Below, in pieces: positions 8,329 to 46,429 of a stretch of DNA of 64,000 bases. Position numbers and translations under genes: made by a program. The notes beneath the pieces were generated by a model. The model did not search any database. It saw only the letters and a list, made by a program, of their open reading frames with translations, and was not told where the DNA came from. Location of the stretch: positions 310,001 to 374,000 of the forward strand of contig NZ_QICN01000001.1 of the NCBI RefSeq assembly GCF_003201205.1. The letters are read 5' to 3'. The stretch comes from Sinimarinibacterium flocculans (GTDB lineage: Bacteria > Pseudomonadota > Gammaproteobacteria > Nevskiales > Nevskiaceae). The stretch's first letter is position 1, and every line of letters begins with the position of its first letter.

Positions 8329-8380
8329 GAAGCCTTCGGTTCGGGACGAGGCGGGGGGAACTGTGGCTACACTGGGCCGC

Positions 8381-30699: not shown

Positions 30700-33131
30700 G
30701 GCGCGGCCTCGACTGCGCCGCCCGGCGTGCGCTCCGGCCCGAACGGCCGGAGCCACAACACCAGCGCCGGCAGCAGGAACAGGTCGGCCACCAGCGCGGC
30801 CACCATCGTCGCGGCGAGCAGTGCGCCGAAGCTGGTCAGCACCGCCATCGAGGAAATCAGGTAGCTGGAGAAGGCTGCGGTGAGGATCACGGTGGTGACC
30901 GTGATCGCCGGGCCGACGCCGCGCAGGGCGCGGGCGACGGCCGTGCGGTAGTCGCCGCTGGCCGCGAACTCGCTGCGCAGTCGCGCGAGCATGTGGATGG
31001 TGTCGTCGACGGCGATGCCGATCGCGATCGTTGCCAGCAGCAGGCGCAGGTAGTCCAGCGACCACGCCAGCCAGCCCATCATGCCCAGCGTCAGGGCGAT
31101 CGGAAACAGGTTCGGGATCATGCCGATCAGGCCGACCTTGACCGAGCCGAAGGCCAGCATCATGACCAGCGTGATCAGACCGAAGACCACGGCATAGCCC
31201 TCGATCTGGGTCCTGGTGATGTAGTCGGCCATACGCACCCACAGCAGGCCGATGCCGCTGACCTCGATGCGGGCGTGCTGCGGCGGATGCTGTGCGAGAT
31301 GGGCATCCATCGCCGCCATGAAGCGGCGCACCTCGCTGGCCGCGACCAGCTGGAGCCGCACCTGCAGCGCGGTGCTGGAGCGGTCGAGGTTGAGCACGTC
31401 CTCCATTTCCTTGCCGCCGGACATCTCGTAGACCAGCAGCAGCTGCGCGAGCACCTGCGGATCGTCCGGGATGCGGTAGTAGGCGGGGTCGTCGCCGTGG
31501 AAGGCCTGGTTCAGTTCCTTGACGATGTCGACGATCGACAGGCTGTCTTGCACGACGGTCTCGCGGTCTGCCGCGGCCTGCAGAGCCTCGATTTCCTTGA
31601 GCAGGTCGGGGTTCTTGATGCCGTCCGCGGTATCGGTCTCGAACAGGTAGATCACGCTGAGCAGGCCGCCCATCAGCGCGTTGATCTGTTCGGTGTGCCG
31701 ACGCCACTCCTGCGACGGCTTGAACTCGTGCAGGAAGTTGAAGTCCACCTGCAGCCGCGCCAGCCCGGCGCCGGCCCCGAGCAGCACGACCAGGAAGCCG
31801 GCGAGCAGCGCACGCGGATGACGCAGGTTGATGGCGACGGTCCATTCGATGAAGCGCTGCAGCCAGCCGCTGTTGGCGGGGCCGACGGCGGCCGGCTGTG
31901 GCTTCGCGCGGGCGGCAAAGCCGATCAGCAGCGTCAGCGACAGCACGAAGGCACAGATGACGCCGAAGGCCGAGTACAGCGCCAGCTCGCTGACGGCGCG
32001 CAAGTCGGACACCGTCATGCCGAGAAAGCCGATCGCCGTCGTCACGGCCGCCAGCAGGCAGGGCGTGCCGACGCGGCTGACCGCGACGCGCACCGCCGCT
32101 GGCGCATCCAGCCTCTCTGCGCGCGCGTCCTGCCAGGCATGCAGCACGTGCACGCACTGGGCGACGCCCACGGCGCACAGCAGCGACGGGATCATCAGGA
32201 AGAACAGGTTCACCTTCCAGCCGACCAGCCCCATCAGGCCGAGCGTCAGCGTGATCGACAGCAGCACGACGCCCAGCGGCGCCAGCAAACCGAGCAGCCG
32301 GGTGCGGAACAGCAGCAGGCCGGCGAGGCTGACCAGCAGCATCGACACGACCGTCAGCAGCCCGATCTCGCCGCCGAGGATCTCGTTGTAGGCGGCGTTC
32401 ATCGGCACGTCGCCGGAGATCAGGTACTCGATGCCGGCGTACCGGAACTCGGGGCGTTCGAGAATCTCGCGGACGACGCGGTTGGGCACCTGCGGATAGA
32501 GATTGGCGATGCCGTCGCCGCCGTCCGGATCGTGGCGCAGGCGGTCCACCGGATCGGTGCTGGTGCGCGTCATCTCGATGACGATGGCGGCGTTGCGCGC
32601 ATCCGGACTGAGCAGGCTGCCGACGTAGATCGGCTTGCCCAGCGCGACCTCGCGCAGGCGCAGCAGTTCGTCCTGCGTTTCAGGGAAGTCCTCTATCAGA
32701 TCGCGGATCGTGATCAGGTCGCCGTCGGCCTCGATGAACTCGACATTGCTCAGGCTGGTGACCTTGCGCGCGAACGGCACCTCGGCTTCGAGTGCGCGCG
32801 TGAGTGCGTCGATCTGGCGCATCACCTCGATGTCGAACGGCCCATGTTCGCGGCTGGGCGCGCGATACAGCAGGTAGACGACCTCGTCGGACGAGAAGTC
32901 GCGGATGTACTGCTGGTAGGCCGCGAACGCCGCGTCGGATTCGTTGAAGTACGAATCCATGCTGTTGTCCTGGCGGACCTTGGCGGCGCCCCAGAGGCCG
33001 ACGGCCAGCAGCGCGACGGCGCCGAGCATGACCGTCTTTGCACGTCGGGCGGACCAGTCCGCCATCGATTCGAACAGCCGATCGAGTGCACCCTGCAGGC
33101 CGCGCACGCGCGGCGAATGGTCGTTGGTCAT
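30645..33131 (-). CDS. RND superfamily (MMPL-type) lipid/hydrophobe transporter
   Basis: An 828-residue protein with two similar halves, each a TM, a large periplasmic loop and about five further TMs. Characteristic segments are MIPSLLCAVGVAQCVHVLHAW in the first half and IAIGIAVDDTIHMLARLR in the second, where the DDTIH region carries the proton-relay Asp. RND/MMPL proteins of this size move lipids, hopanoids or fatty acids. It ends the leftward arm of the 30-49 kb locus, 38 bases after the AAA+ gene, and overlaps the START-domain gene tail to tail. Confidence 0.9.
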   Translation of the reverse strand: MTNDHSPRVRGLQGALDRLFESMADWSARRAKTVMLGAVALLAVGLWGAAKVRQDNSMDSYFNESDAAFAAYQQYIRDFSSDEVVYLLYRAPSREHGPFDIEVMRQIDALTRALEAEVPFARKVTSLSNVEFIEADGDLITIRDLIEDFPETQDELLRLREVALGKPIYVGSLLSPDARNAAIVIEMTRTSTDPVDRLRHDPDGGDGIANLYPQVPNRVVREILERPEFRYAGIEYLISGDVPMNAAYNEILGGEIGLLTVVSMLLVSLAGLLLFRTRLLGLLAPLGVVLLSITLTLGLMGLVGWKVNLFFLMIPSLLCAVGVAQCVHVLHAWQDARAERLDAPAAVRVAVSRVGTPCLLAAVTTAIGFLGMTVSDLRAVSELALYSAFGVICAFVLSLTLLIGFAARAKPQPAAVGPANSGWLQRFIEWTVAINLRHPRALLAGFLVVLLGAGAGLARLQVDFNFLHEFKPSQEWRRHTEQINALMGGLLSVIYLFETDTADGIKNPDLLKEIEALQAAADRETVVQDSLSIVDIVKELNQAFHGDDPAYYRIPDDPQVLAQLLLVYEMSGGKEMEDVLNLDRSSTALQVRLQLVAASEVRRFMAAMDAHLAQHPPQHARIEVSGIGLLWVRMADYITRTQIEGYAVVFGLITLVMMLAFGSVKVGLIGMIPNLFPIALTLGMMGWLAWSLDYLRLLLATIAIGIAVDDTIHMLARLRSEFAASGDYRTAVARALRGVGPAITVTTVILTAAFSSYLISSMAVLTSFGALLAATMVAALVADLFLLPALVLWLRPFGPERTPGGAVEAAPYSAAAAVSAANNDSASA

Positions 33132-33169: not shown

Positions 33170-33997
33170 TCAGGCGGTCCCCTCACCCAGATAGAGGTCG
33201 ATCATCTTGCGCAGGCCGGCGCCGACCTGCACGTCATCCGTCAGCGGCCCGACGACCGCGGCCTTCGCCGCCTCGACGGGCGTCAGGCCCTCGGCCACCA
33301 GACGGCCGGCGGCGATCAGCACCCGCGTCGATGCGACTTCGCGCAGTCCGCCGGTCTCGAGTCGCCGGATCGCCTGGGCCAGGCGCACGAAATCGGCTGC
33401 CGTCTTCGGATCGACACCGGACTCGGCGGCGACGATGCGTTCCTCGGCGTCGGCCGGCGGATAGCCGAACTCGATGGCCACCATGCGCTGCCGCGTCGAG
33501 TCCTTCAGGTCCTTGAGCACGCTCTGATAGCCGGGATTGTACGAGACGACCAGGCAGAAGCCCGGCGCCGCATCGAGCGTCACGCCGAGGCGCTCGATAG
33601 GCAGCTGGCGCCGGTGATCCGCCAGCGGATGCAGGACGACGGTCGTGTCCTGCCGGGCCTCGACGACCTCGTCGAGGTAGCAGATCGCACCATCGCGGAC
33701 GGCCTTCGTCAGCGGGCCGTCGCACCAGGTGGTCCTGCCGTCGTTGAGCAGGTAGCGCCCGACGAGATCCGCGGTCGTCAGGTCGTCATGGCAGGAGACG
33801 GTGATCAGCGGGCGCCCCAGCTCGTGCGCCATCGCTTCGACGAAGCGGGTCTTGCCGCAGCCGGTCGGCCCCTTCAGCAGGATCGACAGCCCCTGTCGGT
33901 AGGCGGCCTTGAACAGGCGCTCCTCGTTGCCGCAGGCGAGGTAATAGGGGCGTGCCGTCTGCGCGTGGTCCGGTGGTGTGGAGTCCATGGTGTTCAT
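33170..33997 (-). CDS. CbbQ/NorQ-type MoxR AAA+ ATPase (first copy)
   Basis: A 275-residue AAA+ ATPase with Walker A GPTGCGKT (43-50), VSCHDDLTTADLVGRY, Walker B ICYLDE (105-110) and SYNPGYQS. These are hallmarks of CbbQ/NorQ/GvpN proteins, ring ATPases that with a VWA partner remodel or load metal enzymes. It is clearly homologous to the second copy at 44253-45098. Its VWA partner (36815-38497) lies upstream on the same strand, separated by a TonB receptor gene. The client is not identified. Confidence 0.9.
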   Translation of the reverse strand: MNTMDSTPPDHAQTARPYYLACGNEERLFKAAYRQGLSILLKGPTGCGKTRFVEAMAHELGRPLITVSCHDDLTTADLVGRYLLNDGRTTWCDGPLTKAVRDGAICYLDEVVEARQDTTVVLHPLADHRRQLPIERLGVTLDAAPGFCLVVSYNPGYQSVLKDLKDSTRQRMVAIEFGYPPADAEERIVAAESGVDPKTAADFVRLAQAIRRLETGGLREVASTRVLIAAGRLVAEGLTPVEAAKAAVVGPLTDDVQVGAGLRKMIDLYLGEGTA

Positions 33998-34024
33998 GTC
34001 TATGGGCTTGTGCGGGACGCGTAC

Positions 34025-36727
34025 TCAGAAGTTGTAACGCAGGCGGGCGCCGATGAAGCGTGCGGCGCCGACGTTGCGCGACTCGATGCCGAGCGGCCTG
34101 AAGGTCCCTGTCGTGAACACGACATATTCCTCGTCGAGGACATTGGTGGCGAACACCGTGAGGTCGTAGGGTGCCCCGAGGATGCTGGTCCAGCCGATGT
34201 TCAAGTTCAGCAGACCGAAGCCGTCGAGCACCGCAAACGGCGAGGAGCTGGTGGCGGCGACGCGTTGCGCGCCGGTGTGCGCGTAGGTGGCGCCCATGTC
34301 CACACGCCCCCAGCGCGGGGGCAGCGGAGCCGTCCAGTTGATGTGCGCGACGTAGGTGTGGTCCGGCGCAAACGGCAGTTCGTCGCCGGCCTCGGCGATG
34401 GGGGTGCAGGTGAAGCCCTCGATGAATCCGACCGCTTCGACGCGCGAGCAGAAGTCGGCCGACTTGACCAGCTTGGTATCGAGGAACGAGTACGACAGGC
34501 TGACGCTCAGGGCCTCGAGCGGCTGGAAGAAGGACTCGATCTCGATGCCGCGGGAGGTGCCTTCACCGGCGTTGAAGATCGCTGTCGTCGGTCCTGAGGT
34601 CGTCGACACGTAGCCGCCCTGCAGCTGCATGTCGGTCAGCGTGTTGTCGAACAGCGCGATGTTGAAGCGTCCCGGCACCAGTCCGCCGAAGGTGCTCTTG
34701 AAGCCGATCTCGTAGGTGTCGACGGTTTCCGGATTGTGCGTGTCGAGACCGGGATCGGCCAGCATGTTGACCGTACCCTGGCGGTAGCCGCGCGTGTACT
34801 TGGCGTAGGTCATCACATCCTCGCGTGGCCGGAAGGCGAATTCGAGGATGCCGGTGGGCGCGGTGCTCTTCACGGTCGGCGTCTGCACGGTGATCTCGGG
34901 TGCCTGCTGCACCGTGAGCACGTACGGGAAGAATTCCTTGACGCCGTGACCCCTGGTCTCGTCCCAGGTGTAGCGCAGGCCGAGCGTGATGCTGAAGGGA
35001 TCGGCAACGTGCCAGGTGCCCTGGGTGTACACGGCCTTGTTGATGTACTCGGTCTTGACCTGGTAGCGGTAGGGGCCGCCGACGATGCCGGCGAGCGGAT
35101 CGAAGCAGTCGTACTGAGAGGGATCGTTGGTCTCGATCGTCGAGATGTCGCAGTACACCAGCGCCACCGAACTGTTGCCGGAGAATCCGTCCGGACGGCT
35201 GTGCTCGTAATACAGCCCTGCCTGCCAGATCAGGCGATTGTCGAAGGACTCGCCCTGCAGCTGCATCTCCTCGACCCAGGTCTCCTGGCGGGTGACGGGC
35301 ATGTCGGTACGCGGAATCGTGTGGCCGATGCCCAGCACGCGCCGGCCGGTCAGATCGGAAGGGTCGGGGAAGCGGTTGCCGAACACGTTGGAGCTGTTTT
35401 CGGTGTGCAGATGCGCATAGGCGAGGATGTTCTTGAATGCCAGCGTATCCGACAGCGTCCACGTGGTCGTGTTGATCAGGCGCCGTTCGCGGATGTCGGT
35501 CGACGCGCTCTCGATATCGCTGACGACGTCGAAGCGGCCGGCCTGGCCGGCGGCAGCCTGATCGGCGAGCTGCTGTTCGCAGGCCTGGAACGTCAGCAGG
35601 CCCAGCGGGCTGCCGCCCAGCGGAACGCCGGGCAGGGGATTGGTGAGGTCGATGTCGCCGCCGGATGCGATGAGGTCGACCAGGCCGTTGATCAGGGCCT
35701 GCACGTCGTACTCGCCCACTTCGGTCAGGTTCTCGACGAGGTTGTTGCAGGCGTAGAGCTGCGAGGTGCTGCCGTTGGTATCCGAGTTCACCATCGAGGC
35801 AATCGTGTAGTTCTCGATCGTGTCGGTGACGTCCCAGACCAGGCTCAGGCGGCCGGCGGTGTAGTCCAGATCGGCCAGCTCGTCCGGGCCGATGCCGCTG
35901 ACGTTGTTGAGCAGTCCGTCGCGCCGGTTGTGGTCGATGCCCAGGCGCAGGCGCAGGCGATCGTTGACCGGATAGTTGAACACGCCCTGGCCGCGCAGGC
36001 CGCCGAGCTCCGCGCCGGTGAATTCGGCATAGCCTTCGATCACGTCGGTGGGCTTCTGCGGCACGATCAGGATCGCGCCGCCGGTGGTGTTGCGGCCGAA
36101 CAGGGTGCCCTGCGGTCCCTTGAGCACCTGGATGTTCTGGAGGTCGAACAGCGTGCCGGGGCCGGCGCCGTCGCCCGAGGTCTGCGTGCTCTGTCCGCGC
36201 GGCGCGACCACTTCGGCGAAGTAGGTGCCCACCGACGCCGTGGTGCGCAGGTCCTGCGTGAAGCCGCGGATCGTGAACGTGGCGTTGTCGGTGCCGAAGC
36301 GCGTGTTCGCCGACAGCGACGGCGTGTAACGGGCGATGTCGGCGGATGTAGTCATGTTCGCCTTGGAGATCTGCTCCTGGTCCATGACCGTGATCGAGAT
36401 CGCGACGTCCTGCAGGTTCTCTTCGCGGCGTTGCGCGGTCACGATGATCTCTTCGATCTCGCGGGCCGGCCGGAACATGCGCCTGGCGAGACTGTCCTCG
36501 GCAGGCGCCGGTTCGGCGACCGGGACGGTCTGCGCGTAGGGCTCGGGTGTGCGTTCCGGCACGGGGTCGGCGGAGCCCGGCGCTGAGTCCGGGCGGTCCG
36601 ACGCGCCGTTGCCCTGCAGCAGTGCGTCCAGATCGGAGGCGTCGTTCTGCGCGGTCGCGGCTGTCGCGCAGCCGAGGACGGCGAGCCCCAGCAATGCGAG
36701 TGCAGACTTGAAGGTGCCACTGTGCAT
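34025..36727 (-). CDS. TonB-dependent outer-membrane receptor
   Basis: A 900-residue receptor: signal peptide (…ATAATAQ), SDLDALLQGNG, Pro/Glu-rich linker, REIEEIIVTAQRREE, NATFTIRGFTQDLRTTASVG, IQVLKGPQGTLFGRNTTGG, and a barrel ending FIGARLRYNF with a terminal aromatic. It is a paralogue of the pair at 23-29 kb. GGAGGAG precedes the ATG at 36727. Its place between a VWA gene and its AAA+ partner suggests import of the substrate of this locus. Confidence 0.93.
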   Translation of the reverse strand: MHSGTFKSALALLGLAVLGCATAATAQNDASDLDALLQGNGASDRPDSAPGSADPVPERTPEPYAQTVPVAEPAPAEDSLARRMFRPAREIEEIIVTAQRREENLQDVAISITVMDQEQISKANMTTSADIARYTPSLSANTRFGTDNATFTIRGFTQDLRTTASVGTYFAEVVAPRGQSTQTSGDGAGPGTLFDLQNIQVLKGPQGTLFGRNTTGGAILIVPQKPTDVIEGYAEFTGAELGGLRGQGVFNYPVNDRLRLRLGIDHNRRDGLLNNVSGIGPDELADLDYTAGRLSLVWDVTDTIENYTIASMVNSDTNGSTSQLYACNNLVENLTEVGEYDVQALINGLVDLIASGGDIDLTNPLPGVPLGGSPLGLLTFQACEQQLADQAAAGQAGRFDVVSDIESASTDIRERRLINTTTWTLSDTLAFKNILAYAHLHTENSSNVFGNRFPDPSDLTGRRVLGIGHTIPRTDMPVTRQETWVEEMQLQGESFDNRLIWQAGLYYEHSRPDGFSGNSSVALVYCDISTIETNDPSQYDCFDPLAGIVGGPYRYQVKTEYINKAVYTQGTWHVADPFSITLGLRYTWDETRGHGVKEFFPYVLTVQQAPEITVQTPTVKSTAPTGILEFAFRPREDVMTYAKYTRGYRQGTVNMLADPGLDTHNPETVDTYEIGFKSTFGGLVPGRFNIALFDNTLTDMQLQGGYVSTTSGPTTAIFNAGEGTSRGIEIESFFQPLEALSVSLSYSFLDTKLVKSADFCSRVEAVGFIEGFTCTPIAEAGDELPFAPDHTYVAHINWTAPLPPRWGRVDMGATYAHTGAQRVAATSSSPFAVLDGFGLLNLNIGWTSILGAPYDLTVFATNVLDEEYVVFTTGTFRPLGIESRNVGAARFIGARLRYNF

Positions 36728-36814
36728 CCCGTTCTCCTCCCCGGTGCCGGCGGTGTGTCCCGCAGCTACCGGTTATGCGTCCTCAATACCGGCCCGGGCC
36801 GGTTCCCCGAAGCG

Positions 36815-38497
36815 TCAGGCGATCCGCCGCTTCGCCTCTCCATTGCGCAGCGCCGAGCGGAACAGCGGGCCGATCAGCCCGGCCAGCCGATCCGCCTTCG
36901 GCACGCTGGCGTGCGCCGCACTGCCGAAGATCCGGCGCAGCGATTCGGTGTCGGTGCTCGCGCCCACGCTCAGGCACAGGCACCCCACGCCGTCGCGGCG
37001 TGCTTCAGCCAGCGCCTTGCGTGCGTCGGCGCGGCCGTAGCCGGGTTCGTAGCCGTGGTCGTAGGCGAGGCCGTCCGACAGCACGACGAGCAGGCGCCGC
37101 GACGTGCCGCCCTGTTCGATCAGCACGCTCGCGCCGTGGCGGATCGCCGCGCCCAGGCGCGAGTACGCACCCGGCACCAGCCCGAACAGCCGGCGCATGA
37201 CGGCGCTGTCGAGCGCCTCGTCGAAACGTTTCACCGGCGTCAGGTTCACCGACTGCCGGCCCTGCGAGTGGAAGGCGTAGAGGCTGACGCGATCACCGAC
37301 CTCATGCAGCACCGTGGTCAGTGCGGCAGCGACGTCCCGCTGCTGCACGTGGACACTGCCGCCTGCGGGACTGTCCTGGGTCGCCGAGCCCGAGACGTCG
37401 AGCAGGATCAGCACCGACAGGTCGCGGCGCAGGCGCAGGCTCTCGACGTAGACCGCCTCGTCGGGCGCCGATCCGGCGAGCCGTTCGAGCTGCGATTCGA
37501 TGGCCGCGTCGATGTCGATGTCGTCGCCCTGTGCACGGCGGTGAATCCGATCGAGACCCATGCCGAGGCGGGCGAGGGGCTTGCGCAGCGCGTGGCCGGC
37601 GAGCCATTCCACCGATGCATGTGCGTCGGCCTGCGCCGCGACTTCGTTGACCGTGCACCAGTCAGCGCGGTAGGCGCCACGATGCGTGTCCCACTCGGGG
37701 TAGAGGATGCCGCGTCGCGGGCCGAGCAGGCCGTCGAGGCTGTCGGCGCTGGCGCTGGAGGTCACGCTGCGCACGGCGCCGCGCGCGCCGCTGCGGGAAC
37801 TGTGTGTGGGCGCATCGGCGCCCGGGGCGCCGCCCTCCTTGAGGCTGCGCACCTGCTCGAACAGGCGCTGCAGCAGCTTGCCGATGCCGCCGCCGCCACC
37901 GACCGGGCTGCTGACCGTGTCCTCGCCGTCCTCCTCGTCCGCCTGCGCAGTGTCGTCCAGCTCGGTCAGCGCCTGCTGCGCGCTCCGGGGAATGTGCCGG
38001 GGGGCGTCAGTGGAACTGCCGGTTGCGACCGGCGCTGCGGACAGCAGCGCGCGGACGTTAACAACGCCGAAGTCGGTCGGCGTCGCCGGCAGCGGCTCGG
38101 ACGTGCGTGCGAGTGACAGCGAGTCGGCCGGCGATGCCGTGCGCCCGGCGAGTCCGGGATCGATCAGCGAGCGCGCAAGCGGCGGCAGCACCGCATCGAG
38201 CGCGAGCAGTGCGCGGTGTGCTTCTAGAACGAGATAGCGTGCCGCAAGCGTTGGCCGTCGCTTGACGGCCTTGAGGAGTCCGGCCTCGAAGCTGCCCGCG
38301 GCCAGCAGGGCGCACTGCACGCAGAGCTGGCGCAGCTGCGTGCGTCTCGGGGCCGCGAGATCGACGAAGATCGCGGTGCCATCCGTCCACGGCGCTGCGC
38401 CCGGGCCGGCATCCTCGACGCGCACGCCACGCTTCGACAGCGACGACGCGAGCATGTCGAGATCCACGAGATCGGTGCTGCGGGAAGGGGCGGACAT
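36815..38497 (-). CDS. NorD/CbbO-type VWA-domain protein (first copy)
   Basis: A 560-residue protein with a C-terminal von Willebrand A domain: MIDAS DVSGS (367-371), SRLGAAIRHGASVL and VLSDGLAYDHGYEPGYGRAD. Before it lies RRGILYPEWD (about 261-270) and an acidic, Gly-rich linker, the arrangement of NorD/CbbO. Such proteins pair with a MoxR ATPase and contact the client through the MIDAS. The stop is 87 bases from the TonB receptor; the start is 18 bases after the double-SDR stop, so it is in the leftward operon. Confidence 0.88.
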   Translation of the reverse strand: MSAPSRSTDLVDLDMLASSLSKRGVRVEDAGPGAAPWTDGTAIFVDLAAPRRTQLRQLCVQCALLAAGSFEAGLLKAVKRRPTLAARYLVLEAHRALLALDAVLPPLARSLIDPGLAGRTASPADSLSLARTSEPLPATPTDFGVVNVRALLSAAPVATGSSTDAPRHIPRSAQQALTELDDTAQADEEDGEDTVSSPVGGGGGIGKLLQRLFEQVRSLKEGGAPGADAPTHSSRSGARGAVRSVTSSASADSLDGLLGPRRGILYPEWDTHRGAYRADWCTVNEVAAQADAHASVEWLAGHALRKPLARLGMGLDRIHRRAQGDDIDIDAAIESQLERLAGSAPDEAVYVESLRLRRDLSVLILLDVSGSATQDSPAGGSVHVQQRDVAAALTTVLHEVGDRVSLYAFHSQGRQSVNLTPVKRFDEALDSAVMRRLFGLVPGAYSRLGAAIRHGASVLIEQGGTSRRLLVVLSDGLAYDHGYEPGYGRADARKALAEARRDGVGCLCLSVGASTDTESLRRIFGSAAHASVPKADRLAGLIGPLFRSALRNGEAKRRIA

Positions 38498-38515
38498 GGG
38501 CGTCGCTTCGTCCAG

Positions 38516-40603
38516 CTACGACAGCCGTTGCAGGTCGTCGACGATGGTCTGCAGACGCTCGGCCGGCATCCGCGCCTGCGGGAAGCCGGAGATCTGCCGC
38601 AGCGTCAGGCCACGCCCCATGCGCAGCAGCGGACCGGCCGTGGCCATCTCCGGGTAGTGCCGCGCCATCACCGCCTTGGCTTCGGGATGGTCGAGGATGT
38701 CGCCGAGCTTGCTGTCGGCGCTGAACGGCGTGGTCCCCGAGGCTTCGGAGGCGCTGTCCTGGCCAAGGCCGCGTCGCGCGCTGATCTGCATCACCTCGTC
38801 GACGATCGACGTCGGAACCGTGAACGGCTGCGTGCCGGAGATCTTCGCGAGATTGGCGGCAATGTCTTCCGCGGTCGGTTCGGTGCCGGCCGGCGCGAGC
38901 CAGCCCTCGCCGAGTCCGGCGAAGACACGGGCATAGCGTCCGGCACCGGCCGAGTAGTTGTGGTGGCTCAGGGCGCAGGCGCGGCTCGCGAGGAACACCA
39001 CCATCGGCACGACCAGTCTGGGGTCGATGATCTGCAGGAAGGGAATCTGCGCGGCGGCCTCGTCGCCACCCACGGTTTCCGTGACCATCCGCGAGAAGCC
39101 GAAGGGCAGCACGCAGTTGGCCTTGATGCCGTGCTCCTCGCCTTCGATGGCGACGACGTTGGCAAGGCCGAAGGTGCCGGCCTTGGCCGCCGCGTAGTGG
39201 GCTTCCTGCGGCTGCCCGAACATTCCGGCCGACGAGGCGGTGAAGACGAAGCGGCCGTAGCCCTGGGCTTTCATCGCACGGAAGGCCGGCTGGCTCAGGT
39301 AGAAGCTGCCGTCGAGATGGACGTTGAGCATGCGCCGCCATGCGTCGGCGCTCAGGCGTTCGAAGTCCACCGAGCCGAAGATGCCGGCATTGCTGATCAC
39401 GGCGTCGAGACGGCCGAAGTGTTCGAGCGCGGTGCGCACGATCGCCTCGCCGCCTTCGGGCGTGGCCACCGAGTCGTGGGAGGCCACGGCCTTGCCGCCG
39501 GCCCGACGGATCTCGTCGACGACCTGGTCGGCGACACTGCCGTCGGCGCCGTCGCCGCCCATCGAGCCGCCGAGATCATTGACGACGACGGCGGCGCCGC
39601 GACGCGCGAACTCCAGCGCGTACAGGCGTCCGAGACCGCGGCCGGCACCGGTGACGATGACGACCTGGTCCTTGAAGTCGATGGCCGTGGTCTGATGCGG
39701 ACTCAGAGGCGCGGCGGCCGTCGCGACGGTGGTAGGTGCGGGCGACGGGCTGCGCAAGACGCCCATGCCGGGAATCTTCATCGCCATGCGCACGATGTGA
39801 TGTACCCACAGCCCCGGTACCCAGCGTGCCATGAAGGCCAGCGCGCCGGCGTCGGGGCCGACGGTGCGGCGCACGATCGGTTTGCGGTCGAGCACGGCCT
39901 GCGCCAGCGCGCGCGCGAACTTCTCCGGCGGACTGGCCTTGGCCACGGCCGCCTTGCCGGCGGCGTGGATGCCTTCGTACATCCGGCCGTAGGGGCCGTG
40001 ATGGTCGCCGTAGTCGGGCGTCTGCTCGGTCAGGATGTCGGTGTTGAAGGTGCCGGTCACCAGAATCGACACGCCCAGTCCGAACGGCGCGATTTCCTGC
40101 GACAGCGCTTCGGCCCAGCGTTCGAGCGCACCCTTGGAGGCGGAATAGGCACTGATCACCGGCATGCCGCGCACGGCGCCCATGCTGGAGATGGCGACGA
40201 TGCGGCCGCTGCCGCGCGCACGCATCGCCGGCAGCAGCGCGCGGGTCAGGGTCACCGGGCCGAACAGGTTGGTGGCAAAGAGCTGCTGCCACGCCGACTC
40301 CGGCGTTTCCTCGGCACTGCCGGCGGCGGCCACGCCGGCGTTGTGGACGATCACGTCGGGCGCACCCACGGCGTCGAGCATGGCCTGTGCCGCGACCGGG
40401 ATCGACGCCGCGTCGGCAAGATCGAGCTTCATGCCGACGATGCGCGGATCGTCGGCCGGGGCGCCTGCCGCCGCGCGCAGCCGTTCCAGGCCGGCATCGA
40501 CCGAGCGCATCGCGGCGACCACGCGCCAGCCCTGTCGGTACAGGTGAACGGCGGACGCCAGGCCCAGCCCGCGCGACGCGCCGGTGATCAGCACCGTGCG
40601 CAT
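38516..40603 (-). CDS. Tandem double-SDR fusion protein with C-terminal tail domain
   Basis: A 695-residue protein with two SDR domains. The first has TGASRGLG (7-14), HNAGV, and YSASK (153-157). A 25-residue Ala/Pro linker follows at about 285-308. The second has TGAGRGLG (318-325), SNAGIFG, and YAAAK (470-474), resembling the SDR part of MFE-2/17-beta-HSD4 proteins. A tail at about 630-695 (SKLGDILDHPEAKAV ... QTIVDDLQRL) resembles a helical module I have seen at the ends of unrelated enzymes. The ATG at 40603 overlaps the AveC-like stop. Two oxidoreductions on one substrate, possibly a steroid or terpenoid, are inferred. Confidence 0.85.
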   Translation of the reverse strand: MRTVLITGASRGLGLASAVHLYRQGWRVVAAMRSVDAGLERLRAAAGAPADDPRIVGMKLDLADAASIPVAAQAMLDAVGAPDVIVHNAGVAAAGSAEETPESAWQQLFATNLFGPVTLTRALLPAMRARGSGRIVAISSMGAVRGMPVISAYSASKGALERWAEALSQEIAPFGLGVSILVTGTFNTDILTEQTPDYGDHHGPYGRMYEGIHAAGKAAVAKASPPEKFARALAQAVLDRKPIVRRTVGPDAGALAFMARWVPGLWVHHIVRMAMKIPGMGVLRSPSPAPTTVATAAAPLSPHQTTAIDFKDQVVIVTGAGRGLGRLYALEFARRGAAVVVNDLGGSMGGDGADGSVADQVVDEIRRAGGKAVASHDSVATPEGGEAIVRTALEHFGRLDAVISNAGIFGSVDFERLSADAWRRMLNVHLDGSFYLSQPAFRAMKAQGYGRFVFTASSAGMFGQPQEAHYAAAKAGTFGLANVVAIEGEEHGIKANCVLPFGFSRMVTETVGGDEAAAQIPFLQIIDPRLVVPMVVFLASRACALSHHNYSAGAGRYARVFAGLGEGWLAPAGTEPTAEDIAANLAKISGTQPFTVPTSIVDEVMQISARRGLGQDSASEASGTTPFSADSKLGDILDHPEAKAVMARHYPEMATAGPLLRMGRGLTLRQISGFPQARMPAERLQTIVDDLQRLS

Positions 40604-41712
40604 CAGCCATTCCCCTTCGGCAGGCAGCCGGGCTCGTCGACCAGCGGATTGACGGCGGGCCGACCGTCGGGCTGGCCGATGGTGATGCGGTTCCAGTAGC
40701 CCTCGAAGTACGGTCCGGGCTGGCCCTCGCGCTCGTAGTAGCCCTGCGGGTCGTAGACCTTGGCTTCCGGGTACGGGTAGGGGCAGGCGACCGAGGTGGC
40801 GAGGCCGGACACGCGGATCAGCGCGAAGGCGCCGCCGTAGCAGAAGTAGGCGACGTTGAGGAAGCCGAACATCATCAGGAAGCTCGCGAGTACCGGCCGG
40901 TGCTGCAGGAAGCGCAGCCGCTGCGCGAGCTTTTCGGCCACGGTACGCCCGGTATCGTCGCGGTAGACGAGGATGCCCGCGGGAATCATCACGAAGGTGA
41001 CGAAGGTGGATTCCCAGATCAGCGGGAACTGGTACGTGGTGCCGGCGAAGATCGTCCCGAACGGGATGGCCTGCGAGTAGATGTACATGCCGGTCCTGAC
41101 GAGCGTGACCTCCAGCATCATGTCCATCACGAAGCCGAAGACGAGGATCAGTCCCGCGAGACTCCACAGCGGGTGGCGCCAGACGAAGGCGTCCATCGTC
41201 CGCTTCGCCTGCATGCGCCGCAGCATCCACACCGCGGGAAAGTAGGGGCCGAAGTAGAACAGCGCGTAGCCGATGACGACGAAGGGTTCGACCGTCGGCG
41301 ACAGGTTGATCAGCGGCCAGTCCTCGGGCCAGTGCCACAGCTGCGGGTTGTACACCGCGTACGGCGCCCAGTTCATGATCGGGTCCTGCCAGACGATCGC
41401 GGTCGATGCGATCGCCATCAGCACGTAGGGGTGCCCTGGCTGGCGGCGCCATGCCTGGATGCAGACGACGATCAGGACGATCATCGCGACGACGCAGAAG
41501 AACTGCTGCAGCTCCAGCCAGTAGTCGAAGCCGAACAGCACCTCGACCGGTCGCGGCACGCCGGTGACCTCGGGGTTGGCGATGCGCGGCGACACCGCGC
41601 CGGTACGCGCGAACCACGCAATGACGCCGATGAGTGCTGCCGGAAGCAGCCACCAGAGCCAGCCGGCCGGACTCCGGCCCGGCGTTCCCACCGCTGCGAC
41701 GCGACCGCTCAT
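40603..41712 (-). CDS. AveC-like integral membrane protein (spirocyclase family, first copy)
   Basis: A 369-residue protein with about seven hydrophobic segments. Its layout (an early WLELQQF pair, IVWQDPIMNWAPYAVYNPQL, the WLAAY-like TMs, then WESTFVTFVMIP and a FNRAYF-like FLNVAYFCYGG) recalls the AveC family named after the avermectin spirocyclase; assignment is by motif feel, not by search. Most AveC-like bacterial proteins are uncharacterised. The start is at 41712 with GAGGAGATAG upstream, and the stop overlaps the SDR start (ATGA). Confidence 0.65.
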   Translation of the reverse strand: MSGRVAAVGTPGRSPAGWLWWLLPAALIGVIAWFARTGAVSPRIANPEVTGVPRPVEVLFGFDYWLELQQFFCVVAMIVLIVVCIQAWRRQPGHPYVLMAIASTAIVWQDPIMNWAPYAVYNPQLWHWPEDWPLINLSPTVEPFVVIGYALFYFGPYFPAVWMLRRMQAKRTMDAFVWRHPLWSLAGLILVFGFVMDMMLEVTLVRTGMYIYSQAIPFGTIFAGTTYQFPLIWESTFVTFVMIPAGILVYRDDTGRTVAEKLAQRLRFLQHRPVLASFLMMFGFLNVAYFCYGGAFALIRVSGLATSVACPYPYPEAKVYDPQGYYEREGQPGPYFEGYWNRITIGQPDGRPAVNPLVDEPGCLPKGNG

Positions 41713-41717
41713 GCCCT

Positions 41718-42416
41718 CTATCTCCTCGTGGACGCCGCTTTCTTCTGGCGGGTGCGGCGCTTGTGGGTGTCTTGAATGCCCAGCAGATGGCGCATCGCGC
41801 GCAGGACCTCCCGCTTGAGTCCGGCGACCTGCTCCGCTTCCATGGATGCGGCTTGGTCCTGCTGCGGCACCAGCGTGGCCAGTGCGCCGGCGTAGAAGAT
41901 CGTGGTCCCGACCACCGAGCTGGCGACCAGAAAGACGTTGTCCTCGACGGGGCGCAACTCGCCGCTGGCGCAGCCTTCCTCGAACAGCGCGAGGAAGCGC
42001 ATCGCCACCTGGTCGTCGTCGGAGAAGATGCCGTGGGCATGCGGCTCGGGGCCGTCGGCGACGAAGCGCATCAGCAGCCTGGCCAGCGTCGGGCGCGCGA
42101 CCAGCGTGTCGATCCAGGCGCCGGCAGCCATCTCGATGCGCTCGGCAATGCTGCGATCCGATGCGGCGAGGATGCGCTCGAGCTCGTCCCTGAGCGGACC
42201 GAACGCATCCTCAAACATGGCGTCGTACAGCGCCTGCTTGTCCTTGTAGTAGTAGAACAGGGCAGCGCGCGTCATCTGCACGGTGTCGGCCACATCCTCG
42301 AGCCGCGCGGCGGCAAAGCCCTTGCGGGCGAACAGATCCTCGGCGGCCGCGAGGATCGCGGCGCGCGTGCGCTCGGCCCGGGCGCTGGTCGGTTCGCTGA
42401 CGGTGGCGTTGGTCAC
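41718..42416 (-). CDS. TetR family transcriptional regulator of the 30-49 kb locus
   Basis: About 232 residues from a GTG at 42416, which has AGGAG at good spacing; a longer ATG-started form (42449 or 42488) is possible. Helix-turn-helix region: ILAAAEDLFARKGFAAARLE followed by DVADTVQMTRAALFYYYKDK. The ligand domain is not informative. It is the first gene of the leftward arm and lies next to a 17-base palindrome (42507-42523) in the divergent promoter, so it probably represses both arms in the absence of a hydrophobic ligand. Confidence 0.88.
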   Translation of the reverse strand: MTNATVSEPTSARAERTRAAILAAAEDLFARKGFAAARLEDVADTVQMTRAALFYYYKDKQALYDAMFEDAFGPLRDELERILAASDRSIAERIEMAAGAWIDTLVARPTLARLLMRFVADGPEPHAHGIFSDDDQVAMRFLALFEEGCASGELRPVEDNVFLVASSVVGTTIFYAGALATLVPQQDQAASMEAEQVAGLKREVLRAMRHLLGIQDTHKRRTRQKKAASTRR

Positions 42417-42506
42417 TGGATGGCTCCTGCACGTGGTTGGGACCGGCATTCTCGCCGCCCGACCACGGGCGGGTGGCGATCTCTCCATGGAACTCTACTT
42501 GCGCGA

Positions 42507-42523
42507 CAGTTGAAATTCAACTG
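42507..42523. promoter_or_regulatory. Palindromic operator in the central divergent promoter
   Basis: Perfect eight-base arms CAGTTGAA and TTCAACTG around a single A. It lies 84 bases before the start of the 36-residue TM gene and 91 bases before the TetR start, in the only divergent gap of the 18-kb locus. A second weaker inverted pair AGTCA/TGACT follows within 25 bases. A TetR dimer site is likely. Confidence 0.6.
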
Positions 42524-42591
42524 GCGAGTCAGTAAAGTTTTGACTGTCGAACAGAAACACGACTGATCCCGATTGGGGCGAGGAGAACGAC

Positions 42592-42702
42592 ATGCTTGAG
42601 CTTCTGTTGCTGGACGGCCTGCGGCTGTTGTTCGCGTTCGGGGTCTGCGGCCTGGTGATCTGGTTCTGGTACTGGTTCATGGATTCGGTCGGCACGTTCT
42701 GA
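42592..42702 (+). CDS. Tiny single-TM peptide (36 residues), first gene of rightward arm
   Basis: The peptide MLELLLLDGLRLLFAFGVCG followed by LVIWFWYWFMDSVGTF is mostly hydrophobic with one transmembrane stretch. The start is well placed after GAGGAG with seven-base spacing. I know no family. It begins the rightward arm, 25 bases before the VWA gene, and with the peptides at 45095 and 48147 makes three such small membrane genes in this locus. Confidence 0.65.
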   Translation: MLELLLLDGLRLLFAFGVCGLVIWFWYWFMDSVGTF

Positions 42703-42726
42703 TCCGGCGCGCCTCGCGACTCCGCC

Positions 42727-44253
42727 ATGTCGTCCGTCAATGCGCTCGGAATGGAGCGAAGCTGCGCGGTCATCGCTTCGGCGCTGTCCGACGGGCGCTG
42801 CGAGGGCGTGCGCCTGATGACCGGGGAGCGGCGGACGTTTGCGATGAACCGGGCGCGCACCGTTGCGCATGTGCCGGTGCCGGCGCTGACGCCGGGGTGG
42901 ACCCTGCGCACCTGGAGCTGCGGCATCGCCCTGCAGTGCGCGCCGTCCAAGGCGCGGATCGCCGCCTTCACACTCAAGGCCCTGTCGCCGCGTCAGTCGG
43001 CAGCGCTGTCCGTCGTCGAAGGGGGCGTCGCGCTGGGGTGGTTGTCCACGCGCTGGCCTGGCCTGGTGCCGGAGCTGCGGCGGTTCCTGCCGGAGCTGCC
43101 GATGCGGGATGCCGATCTGGACGGCGTCACGATCCTCGAGGCGGCGATGGCGCTGGCGGATTCACCTGCGCCGCTTCAGCTTCACCCGGTGCTGGGCCAG
43201 TTGCCGGTCGGTCTGGCGCCGAGGCGCGGTTTGCTCGAAGCGCTGCGGCGCCGCCAGGGGCGCATGCCCTGGTCCACGCGCAAACGCTACGTGTCGCCGG
43301 GCTATGAATCCATCCCGGTCGGAGGGGAGGGCACCATCAAGAGTGCGCGCCTGCCGCCGCCGAGCCGCCCCGAGGACGACGATCCGGAGATCCGTGCGGA
43401 CCAGCGTGCCGGCGTGCCATACCCGGAATGGAACCTGTGGACGCAGAAGTTCCTGCCGGACCATGTCGCGGTGCTCGAGCGCAAGCTGCCGGTCAGTCGC
43501 AAGCCGCCGCGCGCGGTGCCAGCCAATTTGCGGCGCTGGTTCGAAGAACACACGCACCGGGTGATGCAGCGGCGCCTGGAAGACGGCTCCGACCTCGACA
43601 TCGACCAGTACATCGAATTCCACGTCGACCGGAAGACCGGCAAGGCGTCCGAAGCGCGGGTATTCCGCGACCTGCAGCCGAGCTTTCGCGATGTGACCAC
43701 CGCCCTGCTGCTGGACGGCAGCGCTTCGCTGGGCGGGCGCGGAGGAACGAGTTTCAAGCTGGAGCTGGATTGCGCCGACGCGCTGTGTCACGCAATGGCG
43801 CTGGCCCGCGAGCGTCACGGCCTGTTCGTGTTCAACGGCAAGACGCGCCATCGCGTCGACGTGACCTGTCTCAAGGATTTCAAGGACCCGCACCCGGTGA
43901 TTCCGGGCGATCTCGGACTCATGACCGGCGGCTACACGCGGCTGGGTGCGCCCCTGCGTCATCTGACCAGTCGGCTACTCGCTCAGCCGACCGAGCGGCG
44001 CCTGCTGATCGTCATCGGCGACGGCCTGATCTCCGACGAAGGCTACGAAGGCCGCTACGCCTGGGCCGACAGCGCCCATGCGGTCAAGGAGGCCGAGGAC
44101 GCCGCGGTGTCGCTGTACTACATCGGTGTCGGGCAGACCAAGGTCGATCCGCTGCCGGACGTGTTCGGCCCGCAGCGCTCGATGCGCATCCGCCGGGTCG
44201 AGGAACTCCCGCGCGTTCTGGCGCAAGTACATCGTGAACTGGTGGCCGCGTAA
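42727..44253 (+). CDS. NorD/CbbO-type VWA-domain protein (second copy)
   Basis: A 508-residue protein with a C-terminal VWA domain: MIDAS DGSAS (330-334), GGYTRLGAPLRHLTSRLL and VIGDGLISDEGYEGRYAWAD. GVPYPEWNLW (about 229-238) corresponds to YPEWD in the first copy. The N-terminal 200 residues do not resemble the first copy, so the client contacts may differ. The stop overlaps the next start (ATG at 44253), giving tight coupling with its AAA+ partner. Confidence 0.88.
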   Translation: MSSVNALGMERSCAVIASALSDGRCEGVRLMTGERRTFAMNRARTVAHVPVPALTPGWTLRTWSCGIALQCAPSKARIAAFTLKALSPRQSAALSVVEGGVALGWLSTRWPGLVPELRRFLPELPMRDADLDGVTILEAAMALADSPAPLQLHPVLGQLPVGLAPRRGLLEALRRRQGRMPWSTRKRYVSPGYESIPVGGEGTIKSARLPPPSRPEDDDPEIRADQRAGVPYPEWNLWTQKFLPDHVAVLERKLPVSRKPPRAVPANLRRWFEEHTHRVMQRRLEDGSDLDIDQYIEFHVDRKTGKASEARVFRDLQPSFRDVTTALLLDGSASLGGRGGTSFKLELDCADALCHAMALARERHGLFVFNGKTRHRVDVTCLKDFKDPHPVIPGDLGLMTGGYTRLGAPLRHLTSRLLAQPTERRLLIVIGDGLISDEGYEGRYAWADSAHAVKEAEDAAVSLYYIGVGQTKVDPLPDVFGPQRSMRIRRVEELPRVLAQVHRELVAA

Positions 44254-45098
44254 TGGATAGCGAACGCATGCAGCAGCATTTCTACCAGAGCAACGGCAAC
44301 GAGGTTGCGCTGTTCCGGCGCGCCGCCGAGCAGCGCGTGCCGGTGATGCTCACCGGGCCGACCGGCTGCGGCAAGACGCGCTTCGTCGAGTACATGGGCG
44401 AGGTGCTCGGACGCCCGGTGGTGACGATCAGCTGCCATGACGACCTGACCAGCTCCGATCTGGTCGGGCGCTTCATGGTCACCGGTGGCGACGTGGTCTG
44501 GACCGACGGACCGCTGACGCGCGCCGTGAAAGACGGCGCCATCTGCTACATGGACGAGGTCGTCGAGGCCCGGCACGACTCGCTGGCCGTGCTGCACTCG
44601 CTGACCGATCACCGCCGCACGCTCTACCTCGACCGTGCCGGCGAAGTGGTCCGTGCACCGGACAGCTTCATGCTGGTGTGCTCCTACAACCCGGCGTACC
44701 GCAGTTCGCTCAAGGAGCTCAAGCCCTCGTTCCGGCAGCGCTTCGTCACCGTGGCCATGACCTATCTGCCACCGGAGCGCGAGGCCGAAGTGCTCGTCGC
44801 CGAGGCCGGCATCGACGCCGCTGTCGCCAGGCGCCTGGTCAACTGCGCGACCGCCATCCGCAACGCCGATGACGTGTTCCACTTCGAGCCGCCGTCGACG
44901 CGCGTGCTGGTCACCGCGGCCAAGCTCGTCGCCTCCGGCGCCACCGAGATCGAGGCGGCCGACGTCTGCATTCTCGCGCCGTTGTCGAACGACGGCGCCA
45001 TCACCGACGGATTGCGGGAGCTGGCCGCAGCCAGCCTGTTGGGCGCCGCGACCTCGGACCCCACCGCCACGCACACCCCAGGAGGATCCAGGACATGA
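44253..45098 (+). CDS. CbbQ/NorQ-type MoxR AAA+ ATPase (second copy)
   Basis: A 281-residue ATPase with Walker A GPTGCGKT (35-42), ISCHDDLTSSDLVGRF, Walker B ICYMDE (97-102) and SYNPAYRS, matching the first copy at 33170-33997 along its length. With the VWA protein just upstream it forms a complete remodelling pair. Its last bases overlap the start of the 44-residue TM gene. Confidence 0.92.
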   Translation: MDSERMQQHFYQSNGNEVALFRRAAEQRVPVMLTGPTGCGKTRFVEYMGEVLGRPVVTISCHDDLTSSDLVGRFMVTGGDVVWTDGPLTRAVKDGAICYMDEVVEARHDSLAVLHSLTDHRRTLYLDRAGEVVRAPDSFMLVCSYNPAYRSSLKELKPSFRQRFVTVAMTYLPPEREAEVLVAEAGIDAAVARRLVNCATAIRNADDVFHFEPPSTRVLVTAAKLVASGATEIEAADVCILAPLSNDGAITDGLRELAAASLLGAATSDPTATHTPGGSRT

Positions 45099-45235: not shown

Positions 45236-45928
45236 ATGGCAAGCATCCGTCAGAGCGGTTTCGGCGCCTACGACGCGCACCAGGCCGACAGCGCAGCGGC
45301 GCAGTGGAAGGCCGACAAGTGGATGATCGCCGGCACGATCCTGATGGGCACCGGCGTGCTCGGCATCATCGGTTTGCCGATGTTCTTCTACGGCATGCAC
45401 CTGCAGAAGCTCGCCGCGCGCGCCGGCTTCTCCGTGCGGCCGCTGATCGTCACGCTGATCGGCTATCTGGTGATCATCGACTCGGCGCTCAACAGCATGG
45501 GCTGGACGCTGGATCTGTTCGCGCACCACACGCTGATCAACCGCGTGCTGACGGTGGGCTGGGGTGCGCTGTTCGATGGCGGCTACTTCTGGCACTACAA
45601 CGAGCTGTGGGTCGGCGGCGCCGGCGCGCCCGGCGAGAAGGCCTGGGAGATCGCGCTGATTCCCTGCCTGTTCTGTGCACGGTTGGCGGCAGCGATCGGC
45701 CTGCTGCAGATGAAGCGCTGGGGGCAGCAGTGGCTGATCGTCACCTGCTGGATGGGGATCATCGTCTGGACCGGCTACAACACCAACATGACGATCTTCG
45801 CCGACGTGCGCTACGCGAACATCGCCTTCCCGGTCTGGGGCTGGTGGCTCTACGACATCTGGTACATCACGCCGTTTCTCGCGCTGCCGTACCTGCATAC
45901 GGTCAACCGCGAAATCTTCTCCGAGTGA
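45236..45928 (+). CDS. Integral membrane protein of unknown function, about six TMs
   Basis: A 230-residue protein with about six hydrophobic segments and several His residues (15, 55, 97, 98, 120, 221), including an AHH pair and FWHYNELW. Aromatic residues are dense (WGWWLYDIWYITPF). I recognise no family. It starts 6 bases after the 44-residue gene and is followed after 24 bases by a single-TM gene. As the largest unknown between the AAA+ pair and the P450 it is my best candidate for the chaperoned client; metal binding by the His residues is speculative. Confidence 0.7.
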   Translation: MASIRQSGFGAYDAHQADSAAAQWKADKWMIAGTILMGTGVLGIIGLPMFFYGMHLQKLAARAGFSVRPLIVTLIGYLVIIDSALNSMGWTLDLFAHHTLINRVLTVGWGALFDGGYFWHYNELWVGGAGAPGEKAWEIALIPCLFCARLAAAIGLLQMKRWGQQWLIVTCWMGIIVWTGYNTNMTIFADVRYANIAFPVWGWWLYDIWYITPFLALPYLHTVNREIFSE

Positions 45929-45952: not shown

Positions 45953-46426
45953 ATGAACACTTCAACCGATAACAGTCTGCCGCTGGGCACCACCGCACAC
46001 TACGCGACGATGCACACCTGGCTGCAGCGCGGCCTGTTCGCCTGCCTCGTCGTCCTGGTGATCGAAGCCTCGCTGTCGCTGCCACTGATTGCGGTGTGGA
46101 TGGGCTGGCCGACACTGTCGCTGACCGAGATCTGCCACGAGATGACCAAGGTCCGCTACTCCAGCGACGCGGCGGAGTGCAAGGTGCCGCATCCGCTGTT
46201 CGATCCTTCCGAGGGCGTGGCCTTCAAGGACAGCGCCGAGGATCTCTGGGGCATCCAGCCGCGCCCGCTGTACAAGCGGATCGGCTACCGCGATCTCGTC
46301 AGGTTCCGCGACGAACGGCTGGCGCGCGAGGAGGCGGCGCGTTCGCGCAACGCACTCGCGGCGGCCCCGGCACCGATCACCGATGCATCGACACCGGCGC
46401 CGGCTTCGGCATCGGCAGAGGACTGA
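45953..46426 (+). CDS. Single-TM protein with Cys-containing soluble part, unknown
   Basis: A 157-residue protein: N-terminal 25 residues, one TM (residues about 27-51), then a soluble domain with two Cys (61 and 76, in EICHEMTKV and AECKVPHP), an acidic segment KDSAEDLWG and an Ala/Pro tail. No heme CxxCH or known family is seen. It lies three bases ahead of the P450 gene (46430) and in the same operon. Confidence 0.65.
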   Translation: MNTSTDNSLPLGTTAHYATMHTWLQRGLFACLVVLVIEASLSLPLIAVWMGWPTLSLTEICHEMTKVRYSSDAAECKVPHPLFDPSEGVAFKDSAEDLWGIQPRPLYKRIGYRDLVRFRDERLAREEAARSRNALAAAPAPITDASTPAPASASAED

Positions 46427-46429
46427 TTG

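Follow-up and report, generated by a model that had tools for sequence, protein, structure and literature searches.

The 64,000-nucleotide stretch of Sinimarinibacterium flocculans DNA analysed here (contig NZ_QICN01000001.1, positions 310,001 to 374,000; hereafter the window, whose first nucleotide is position 1) encodes two pairs of a MoxR-class AAA+ ATPase and a von Willebrand factor type A (VWA) protein of the NorQ/NorD type. We read the locus as two dedicated NorQ/NorD-type maturation machines, each with its own membrane client: the unclassified membrane protein M230 together with S157 for pair 2, and the AveC-like protein AveC1 for pair 1. We put the probability of this reading at roughly two in three. 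It draws on gene identity, motif integrity, conservation of the gene rows, co-inheritance, separability of the two modules and separate grouping of the AAA+ proteins, all of which were seen directly. The genes that carry the argument, including the metal ion-dependent adhesion sites (MIDAS) of the VWA proteins, are listed below.

33170-33997, minus strand: AAA1, MoxR-class AAA+ ATPase of pair 1 (CbbQ/NorQ type, AveC1-linked subgroup); AAA_5 and CbbQ_C domains, Walker A and B, H2i motif GRYLLxxxxT, tree
36815-38497, minus strand: VWA1, NorD-like VWA partner of pair 1; VWA Pfam domains, MIDAS DxSxS...S...D
40603-41712, minus strand: AveC1, AveC-like multi-pass membrane protein, proposed client of pair 1; PF17198 (E 3.8e-70), linkage
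42727-44253, plus strand: VWA2, NorD-like VWA partner of pair 2; PDB match to NorD, MIDAS DxSxS...T...D, finger-like segment
44253-45098, plus strand: AAA2, MoxR-class AAA+ ATPase of pair 2; AAA_5 and CbbQ_C domains, PDB match to NorQ, tree group 100/100
45236-45928, plus strand: M230, unclassified 230-aa membrane protein, proposed client of pair 2; linkage
45953-46426, plus strand: S157, unclassified 157-aa protein with one N-terminal hydrophobic stretch, proposed M230 partner subunit; present in 75/76 M230 loci

Integrity of the two AAA+/VWA pairs

A preliminary description of this DNA had reported two NorQ/NorD-type pairs with intact Walker motifs and retained MIDAS, and our analysis bore this out. 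All four genes are open frames with the ends given there. Pfam placed AAA_5 and CbbQ_C in both AAA1 and AAA2, and the Walker A (GPTGCGKT) and Walker B (ICYLDEV and ICYMDEV) motifs of both are intact. The best PDB match of AAA2 was NorQ (9qh4_A, E 4.4e-79), and residues 214-508 of VWA2 matched NorD (9qhd_G, E 1.1e-33). DxSxS and the later Asp of the MIDAS are kept in VWA1 and VWA2; the Thr between them is Thr in VWA2 and Ser in VWA1, and Ser was found in 16 of the 18 VWA1-type proteins compared. At residue 285 of VWA2 lies an acidic, finger-like segment, which precedes the MIDAS (residue 327) by 42 residues; in the NorD of locus L220 the two positions are 406 and 447. The commonest C-terminal end of VWA2 proteins is ELVAA (34 of 67), close to the LVA end of Paracoccus NorD given in PMC13036017. 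The N-terminal parts of the VWA proteins differ, as had been noted before, since VWA1 and VWA2 could be aligned over 295 C-terminal residues only, with 30.5% identity. By these motifs, both pairs look functional.

Conservation of M230 and S157 with pair 2

On the plus strand, pair 2 heads a row in the order VWA2, AAA2, M230, S157, P450 and AveC2. When M230 was used as the sole query, 76 loci were obtained from the best 80 of 277 matching places. The hosts in this sample were, among the Gammaproteobacteria, Solimonas, Stenotrophobium, Ketobacter and unnamed bins and, elsewhere, Mycobacterium, Mycolicibacterium, Mycolicibacter, Nocardia, Rhodococcus, Aldersonia and one contig labelled Verrucomicrobia. 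According to best-hit labels, VWA2 was present in 72/76 loci, AAA2 in 71/76 and S157 in 75/76, and an AAA2 gene ended <600 bp upstream of an M230 gene on the same strand in 70/76. Of the loci that depart from this, L062 stops at a contig edge, and the genomes of L008 and L009 carry the pair at another place (L016 and L208), which leaves L032 and L042. At least two M230 matches were found in 51/76 loci, with one copy before VWA2 and one after AAA2 in many actinobacteria.

Neither M230 nor S157 matched any Pfam family above the cut-off. Against PDB sequences, the M230 profile gave no match and the S157 profile chance-level matches only, and a comparison of the M230 and AveC profiles detected no relation (hhalign probability 8%). 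Divergent M230 relatives (34-37% identity) were found in two stretches with no AAA2 or VWA2 match, at 7982-8518 and 14074-14766 of L286 and at 14842-15600 of L004. The contig labelled Verrucomicrobia (L011), whose AAA2 groups with that of the window (100/76), is perhaps a mislabelled or recently transferred piece.

Association of pair 1 with AveC-like proteins

The pair 1 row runs on the minus strand in the order AveC1, double short-chain dehydrogenase (SDR), VWA1, TonB-dependent receptor-like gene, AAA1 and resistance-nodulation-division (RND) transporter. AveC1 and AveC2, the second AveC-like protein of the window, score far above the cut-off of the AveC_like profile PF17198 (236 and 248 bits, cut-off 26.6); AveC is the spirocyclase of avermectin synthesis. 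To our knowledge, the AveC family has no known link to an AAA+/VWA pair. Nor did the open-access literature searched contain any statement that ties such a pair to AveC-like proteins or to M230. In one passage of PMC10876796, spirocyclase, MMPL, P450, SDR, aldehyde dehydrogenase, TetR and CbbQ/NirQ appear, uncommented, among the accessory genes of one Mycobacterium isolate; in two passages of PMC5819568, an AveC protein appears only as an indel marker.

AveC_like was found in 27 of the 28 M230-bearing genomes, at 85 places, and 60 stretches around such places, with 72 called AveC proteins, were surveyed. AAA1 lay within 7 kb of 18/23 AveC1-type, 18/26 AveC3-type, 5/18 AveC2-type and 1/5 other proteins, the window's two being left out. 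The largest number of AveC-like places in one of these genomes was 15, in that of Mycobacterium triplex (G391, the genome of L051). The usual actinobacterial orders are VWA1-AAA1-Peripla_BP_6 protein-AveC1-SDR and AveC3-AAA1-VWA1. In the window the distance between AveC1 and AAA1 is larger because the receptor gene came in between; receptor matches between VWA1 and AAA1 also occur in L199 (a Solimonas terrae genome) and L206 (a Stenotrophobium genome). In actinobacterial loci, the two halves of the double SDR have their counterparts in separate SDR genes close to the VWA1/AAA1/AveC1 module. The Peripla_BP_6 protein (L184 7100-8212, L180 11892-13004, L205 7998-9110) shows no obvious signal peptide by eye at its start and is possibly a substrate sensor.

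In 369 gammaproteobacterial genomes, the VWA1 query matched 145 at E<=1e-30. Among the matches listed, those outside its own genome covered mostly the C-terminal half at 30-39% identity, and they were therefore taken as NorD/CbbO-type.

The pairs might instead serve the P450, SDR, aldehyde dehydrogenase or Peripla_BP_6 protein of a pathway, with M230, S157 and the AveC-like proteins merely neighbours. P450s and SDRs do recur in many loci, and many actinobacterial loci have the Peripla_BP_6 gene between AAA1 and AveC1. However, when the genes of the 76 M230 loci were clustered, only M230, AAA2, VWA2 and S157 were together near-universal; the next cluster was a broad TetR one (62 loci), and those after it covered at most 30. 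In the AveC3-linked loci, moreover, AveC, AAA1 and VWA1 are directly adjacent, the flanks vary, and no Peripla_BP_6 gene was present in the loci read. We therefore consider it unlikely that the pairs serve these pathway proteins rather than M230/S157 and AveC1.

Co-inheritance and separability of the two modules

Co-inheritance was counted in 151 genomes of one actinobacterial family, that of M. triplex, with thresholds of E<=1e-60 for VWA2, E<=1e-10 for M230 and E<1e-60 for a strong AveC-like match. VWA2 was found in 14/151 genomes and M230 in 14/151, these being the identical genomes, and M230 lay within 1.2 kb of VWA2 in all 14. Two random 14-genome sets would coincide with a chance of 5e-20, or 1e-15 without four genomes already met, relatedness making both numbers a guide only. 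Full-length VWA1 was likewise found in 14/151 genomes, with a fragment in G478. AveC_like occurred in 22/151, and the 14 with a strong match were the same 14 that had full-length VWA1. An AveC-like gene lay within 4.2 kb (start to start) of 20 of the 21 full-length VWA1 copies. At the remaining copy, G492:C22, the AAA+ match spans residues 155-270 only, and this pair seems broken or decayed.

The two modules are separable, because two genomes have module 2 alone (G383 and G438, with VWA2 and M230, no full-length VWA1 and no AveC_like match) and two have module 1 alone (G514 and G517, with VWA1 and AveC and neither VWA2 nor M230); 12 genomes have both.

Phylogeny of the AAA+ proteins

A tree of 72 AAA+ proteins included 28 rows of AAA2, 24 of AAA1, 6 of NorQ and 5 of CbbQ; the client types of its rows were read from the loci by hand, the AveC of L172 being seen by tblastn only. 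AAA2 formed one group with support of 100/100. The AAA1 group was supported at 89/75 and was recovered in 84% of 200 bootstrap trees. NorQ formed one group (99/95) that contained neither AAA1 nor AAA2, and the CbbQ rows fell outside the AAA1 and AAA2 groups, with one unlabelled row among them. Judged by this tree, the two AAA+ groups are separate from NorQ and CbbQ, one firmly and one moderately. Within AAA1, an AveC1-linked subgroup (13 rows, 100/97) and an AveC3-linked subgroup (10 rows, 100/99) were resolved, and the remaining row, L211, adjoins an odd AveC. Three ATPase types are thus matched by three types of membrane protein.

Two clients, which the preliminary description had proposed from the differing N-terminal parts of the VWA proteins, are thus the best reading, given the different AAA+ tree groups, the different membrane neighbours and the separable modules. 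Its hint that the pairs lack a client was not supported: each stands in a row with a conserved, co-inherited membrane protein. As a separate observation, genes for a CbbQ-type ATPase, a hypothetical protein of 363 aa and a VWA protein follow one another on a Miltoncostaea plasmid (L223 3959-7669).

Known clients in the genome

The absence of known clients from the window, also stated at the outset, was borne out, but RuBisCO and CO dehydrogenase are present elsewhere in the genome (4.40 Mb, 39 contigs, rated 100% complete). No norCB, cbbLS or coxL is encoded in the window, and the genome matches for norB, RuBisCO and coxL were all on other contigs. The norB search returned the two haem-copper oxidase subunit I (COX1-family) genes of the genome. 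Both score highest as cytochrome c oxidase CtaD, at 678 bits (slightly above the cut-off of 671) and 661 bits (slightly below it), and neither is NorB-like. One RuBisCO large-subunit gene was found on contig C9, and CbbX (531 bits against a cut-off of 459) is encoded two genes from it. The CO dehydrogenase large-subunit gene, coxL (1420 bits, cut-off 991), is on C9 as well and is followed by its own CoxD/E-like pair, which scored best to the NCBIfam models MadB and MadC. Strong AAA2 matches in the genome were the two window ATPases only; a third match was weak (E 1.5e-4).

With RuBisCO, CO dehydrogenase and two haem-copper oxidases in the genome, the window pairs could be spare NorQD or CbbQO sets acting on one of these enzymes in trans. 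However, RuBisCO and CO dehydrogenase do not need them because each has its own helper, CbbX in the first case and the MadB/CoxD-like and MadC/CoxE-like pair in the second. Both oxidases are best as CtaD, and AAA1 and AAA2 lie outside the NorQ and CbbQ groups. All these enzymes were rejected as clients, and ordinary orphan copies acting in trans are highly improbable.

Because the genome search found no norB and the tree groups are different, the pairs belong to the MoxR/VWA class but are not NorQD, CbbQO or CoxDE. Like NorQ/NorD, which loads cytochrome c nitric oxide reductase with its non-haem FeB iron, they combine an AAA_5 + CbbQ_C ATPase and a VWA partner in one row with a multi-pass membrane client, and they share the MIDAS, the finger-like segment and sequence matches to solved NorQ and NorD. 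Unlike that system, they come from a genome in which our search found no NorB, their VWA proteins are shorter (median 509 and 565 residues versus 633 in five NorD) with unlike N-terminal parts, both AAA+ proteins fall in separate tree groups, and AAA2 has no H2i motif. The RuBisCO activase CbbQ/CbbO is of the same AAA+/VWA class, and mean identity to five CbbQ was ~56% for AAA1 and ~46% for AAA2, but neither pair adjoins RuBisCO, the RuBisCO of this genome has CbbX, and the tree groups are separate. CoxD/CoxE, which mature CO dehydrogenase, also consist of a MoxR-class ATPase and a VWA partner encoded with the client, whereas coxL here is on C9 beside a separate CoxD/E-like pair of another subfamily.

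Mechanism and the metal question

In NorQD, according to PMC9976466 and PMC13036017, the FeB iron requires ATP hydrolysis by NorQ and the MIDAS of NorD. NorD reaches into the NorQ pore with its finger and binds NorQ through its last residues, and the docking site on the client is probably formed by acidic residues of NorB. By analogy, the VWA finger would plug the AAA+ hexamer, and the VWA N-terminal part together with the MIDAS would recognise an acidic patch on the client's cytoplasmic side. Twisting driven by ATP would open the client to a cofactor, most likely a non-haem metal. We infer physical action on M230/S157 and AveC1, membrane remodelling and the metal from this comparison; each pair would remodel its own client, probably so that a buried metal can be inserted, as with NorQD. 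The nearby P450s, SDRs, aldehyde dehydrogenase and 3-ketosteroid dehydrogenase-like gene suggest that the reaction is the oxidation of a hydrophobic cyclic compound. In a fuller form, M230/S157 may be an undescribed class of membrane metalloenzyme and AveC1 and AveC3 may be metalloenzymes too, each needing its own NorQD-type motor for its metal and shared by Gammaproteobacteria and Actinobacteria in pathways oxidising hydrophobic cyclic compounds; we offer this tentatively and at clearly less than even odds.

The pairs could also assemble or repair membrane proteins without any metal, by joining subunits or releasing dead-end ligands, with clients that are metal-free acid-base catalysts. AveC is thought to be such a catalyst, a spirocyclase without a reported metal. 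Residue statistics reveal no metal site, and many actinobacterial loci have the pair between two different M230 copies, making complex assembly a possible task. In addition, CbbQO, of the same class, frees inhibited RuBisCO instead of inserting a metal, as described in PMC9976466. Against remodelling without metal stand four carboxylates, D110, E142, D197 and E201, common to AveC1 and AveC3 (one AveC3 has Tyr at 142) at a mean identity of 21%, which is below the 24% of AveC1 versus AveC2; in AveC2 these positions are E, P, A and N in 19/19 proteins. This contrast is suggestive only. The 29 columns at which AveC1 and AveC3 agree include 14 where AveC2 differs, D253 and the four carboxylates among them; the carboxylates are not clearly singled out over other columns, which weighs against the metal reading. 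The four are still present in L213, L215 and L216, which are AveC1-like with no pair nearby. Three M230 relatives that lack a pair close by, one in L004 and the others in L286, have lost H98, E123, D207, H221 and E226, at most a hint of a metal site in these alignments. Overall, we regard remodelling without metal as possible but short of likely.

Several observations weigh against two dedicated maturation machines as such. AveC-like genes are not all accompanied by a pair; 8 of the 22 AveC-positive genomes in the family of M. triplex have weaker AveC matches only and no VWA1. M230-S157 occurs without a pair nearby in L289, L290 and L291. The genomes compared are related, so their counts are not independent; 4/14 genomes with VWA2 and M230 (G391, G394, G383 and G390) had already been met in earlier searches, and co-inheritance could reflect one shared pathway instead of chaperone-client contact. 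Fold models of AveC1 (12 sequences, predicted local distance difference test (pLDDT) 59) and M230 (34 sequences, pLDDT 67), both weak, gave no Foldseek match in the PDB at E<=0.001. A conserved His is lost in chaperone-free M230 relatives (4/4 in L004), and H/D/E/C columns of the L004 M230 are not preferentially lost (9/14 versus 37/78, Fisher P 0.38). The kept and lost residues of M230 were dropped as proof of a metal site because H/D/E/C losses did not exceed those of other columns. Finally, the H2i motif GRxLL/IxxxxT, a NorQ feature according to PMC13036017, is present in AAA1 and absent from AAA2 and from the consensus of the 28 AAA2 rows. Because the NorQ/NorD parts are kept and the H2i motif is in AAA1 but not in AAA2, the motor is expected to be the same, with changed contacts inside each pair.

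Known clients of this AAA+/VWA motor class are few, and two dedicated machines would bring two further client families, one without any Pfam match. If this reading is true, the class would be a general way to finish membrane enzymes, the AveC-like proteins that are abundant in some mycobacteria would gain a handle on their function, and the locus would provide a natural side-by-side test of how one motor chooses one client.

Neighbouring genes

The other genes of the two rows, with the regulator between them, are as follows.

30645-33131, minus strand: RND transporter of the MMPL/HAE3 kind, last of the pair 1 row after AAA1
34025-36727, minus strand: TonB-dependent receptor-like gene between VWA1 and AAA1; gene call
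38516-40603, minus strand: double SDR; gene call
41718-42488, minus strand: TetR-type regulator between the two divergent gene rows; Pfam TetR_N
46427-48133, plus strand: cytochrome P450, the next gene downstream of S157, with an additional C-terminal part; PF00067
48268-49053, plus strand: AveC2, second AveC-like protein; PF17198 (E 8.6e-74, searched with start 48199)

By eye, the extra C-terminal part of the P450 resembles a free-standing 98-aa protein at 11390-11686 of L096, which is on the same contig. Further along the window, the gene at 61671-63383 scored best against 3-ketosteroid-delta-1-dehydrogenase models, at 672 bits, which is under their cut-off (789). Nearby genes encode CoA-transferase and acyl-CoA ligase, and together these genes hint at the breakdown of a cyclic ketone.

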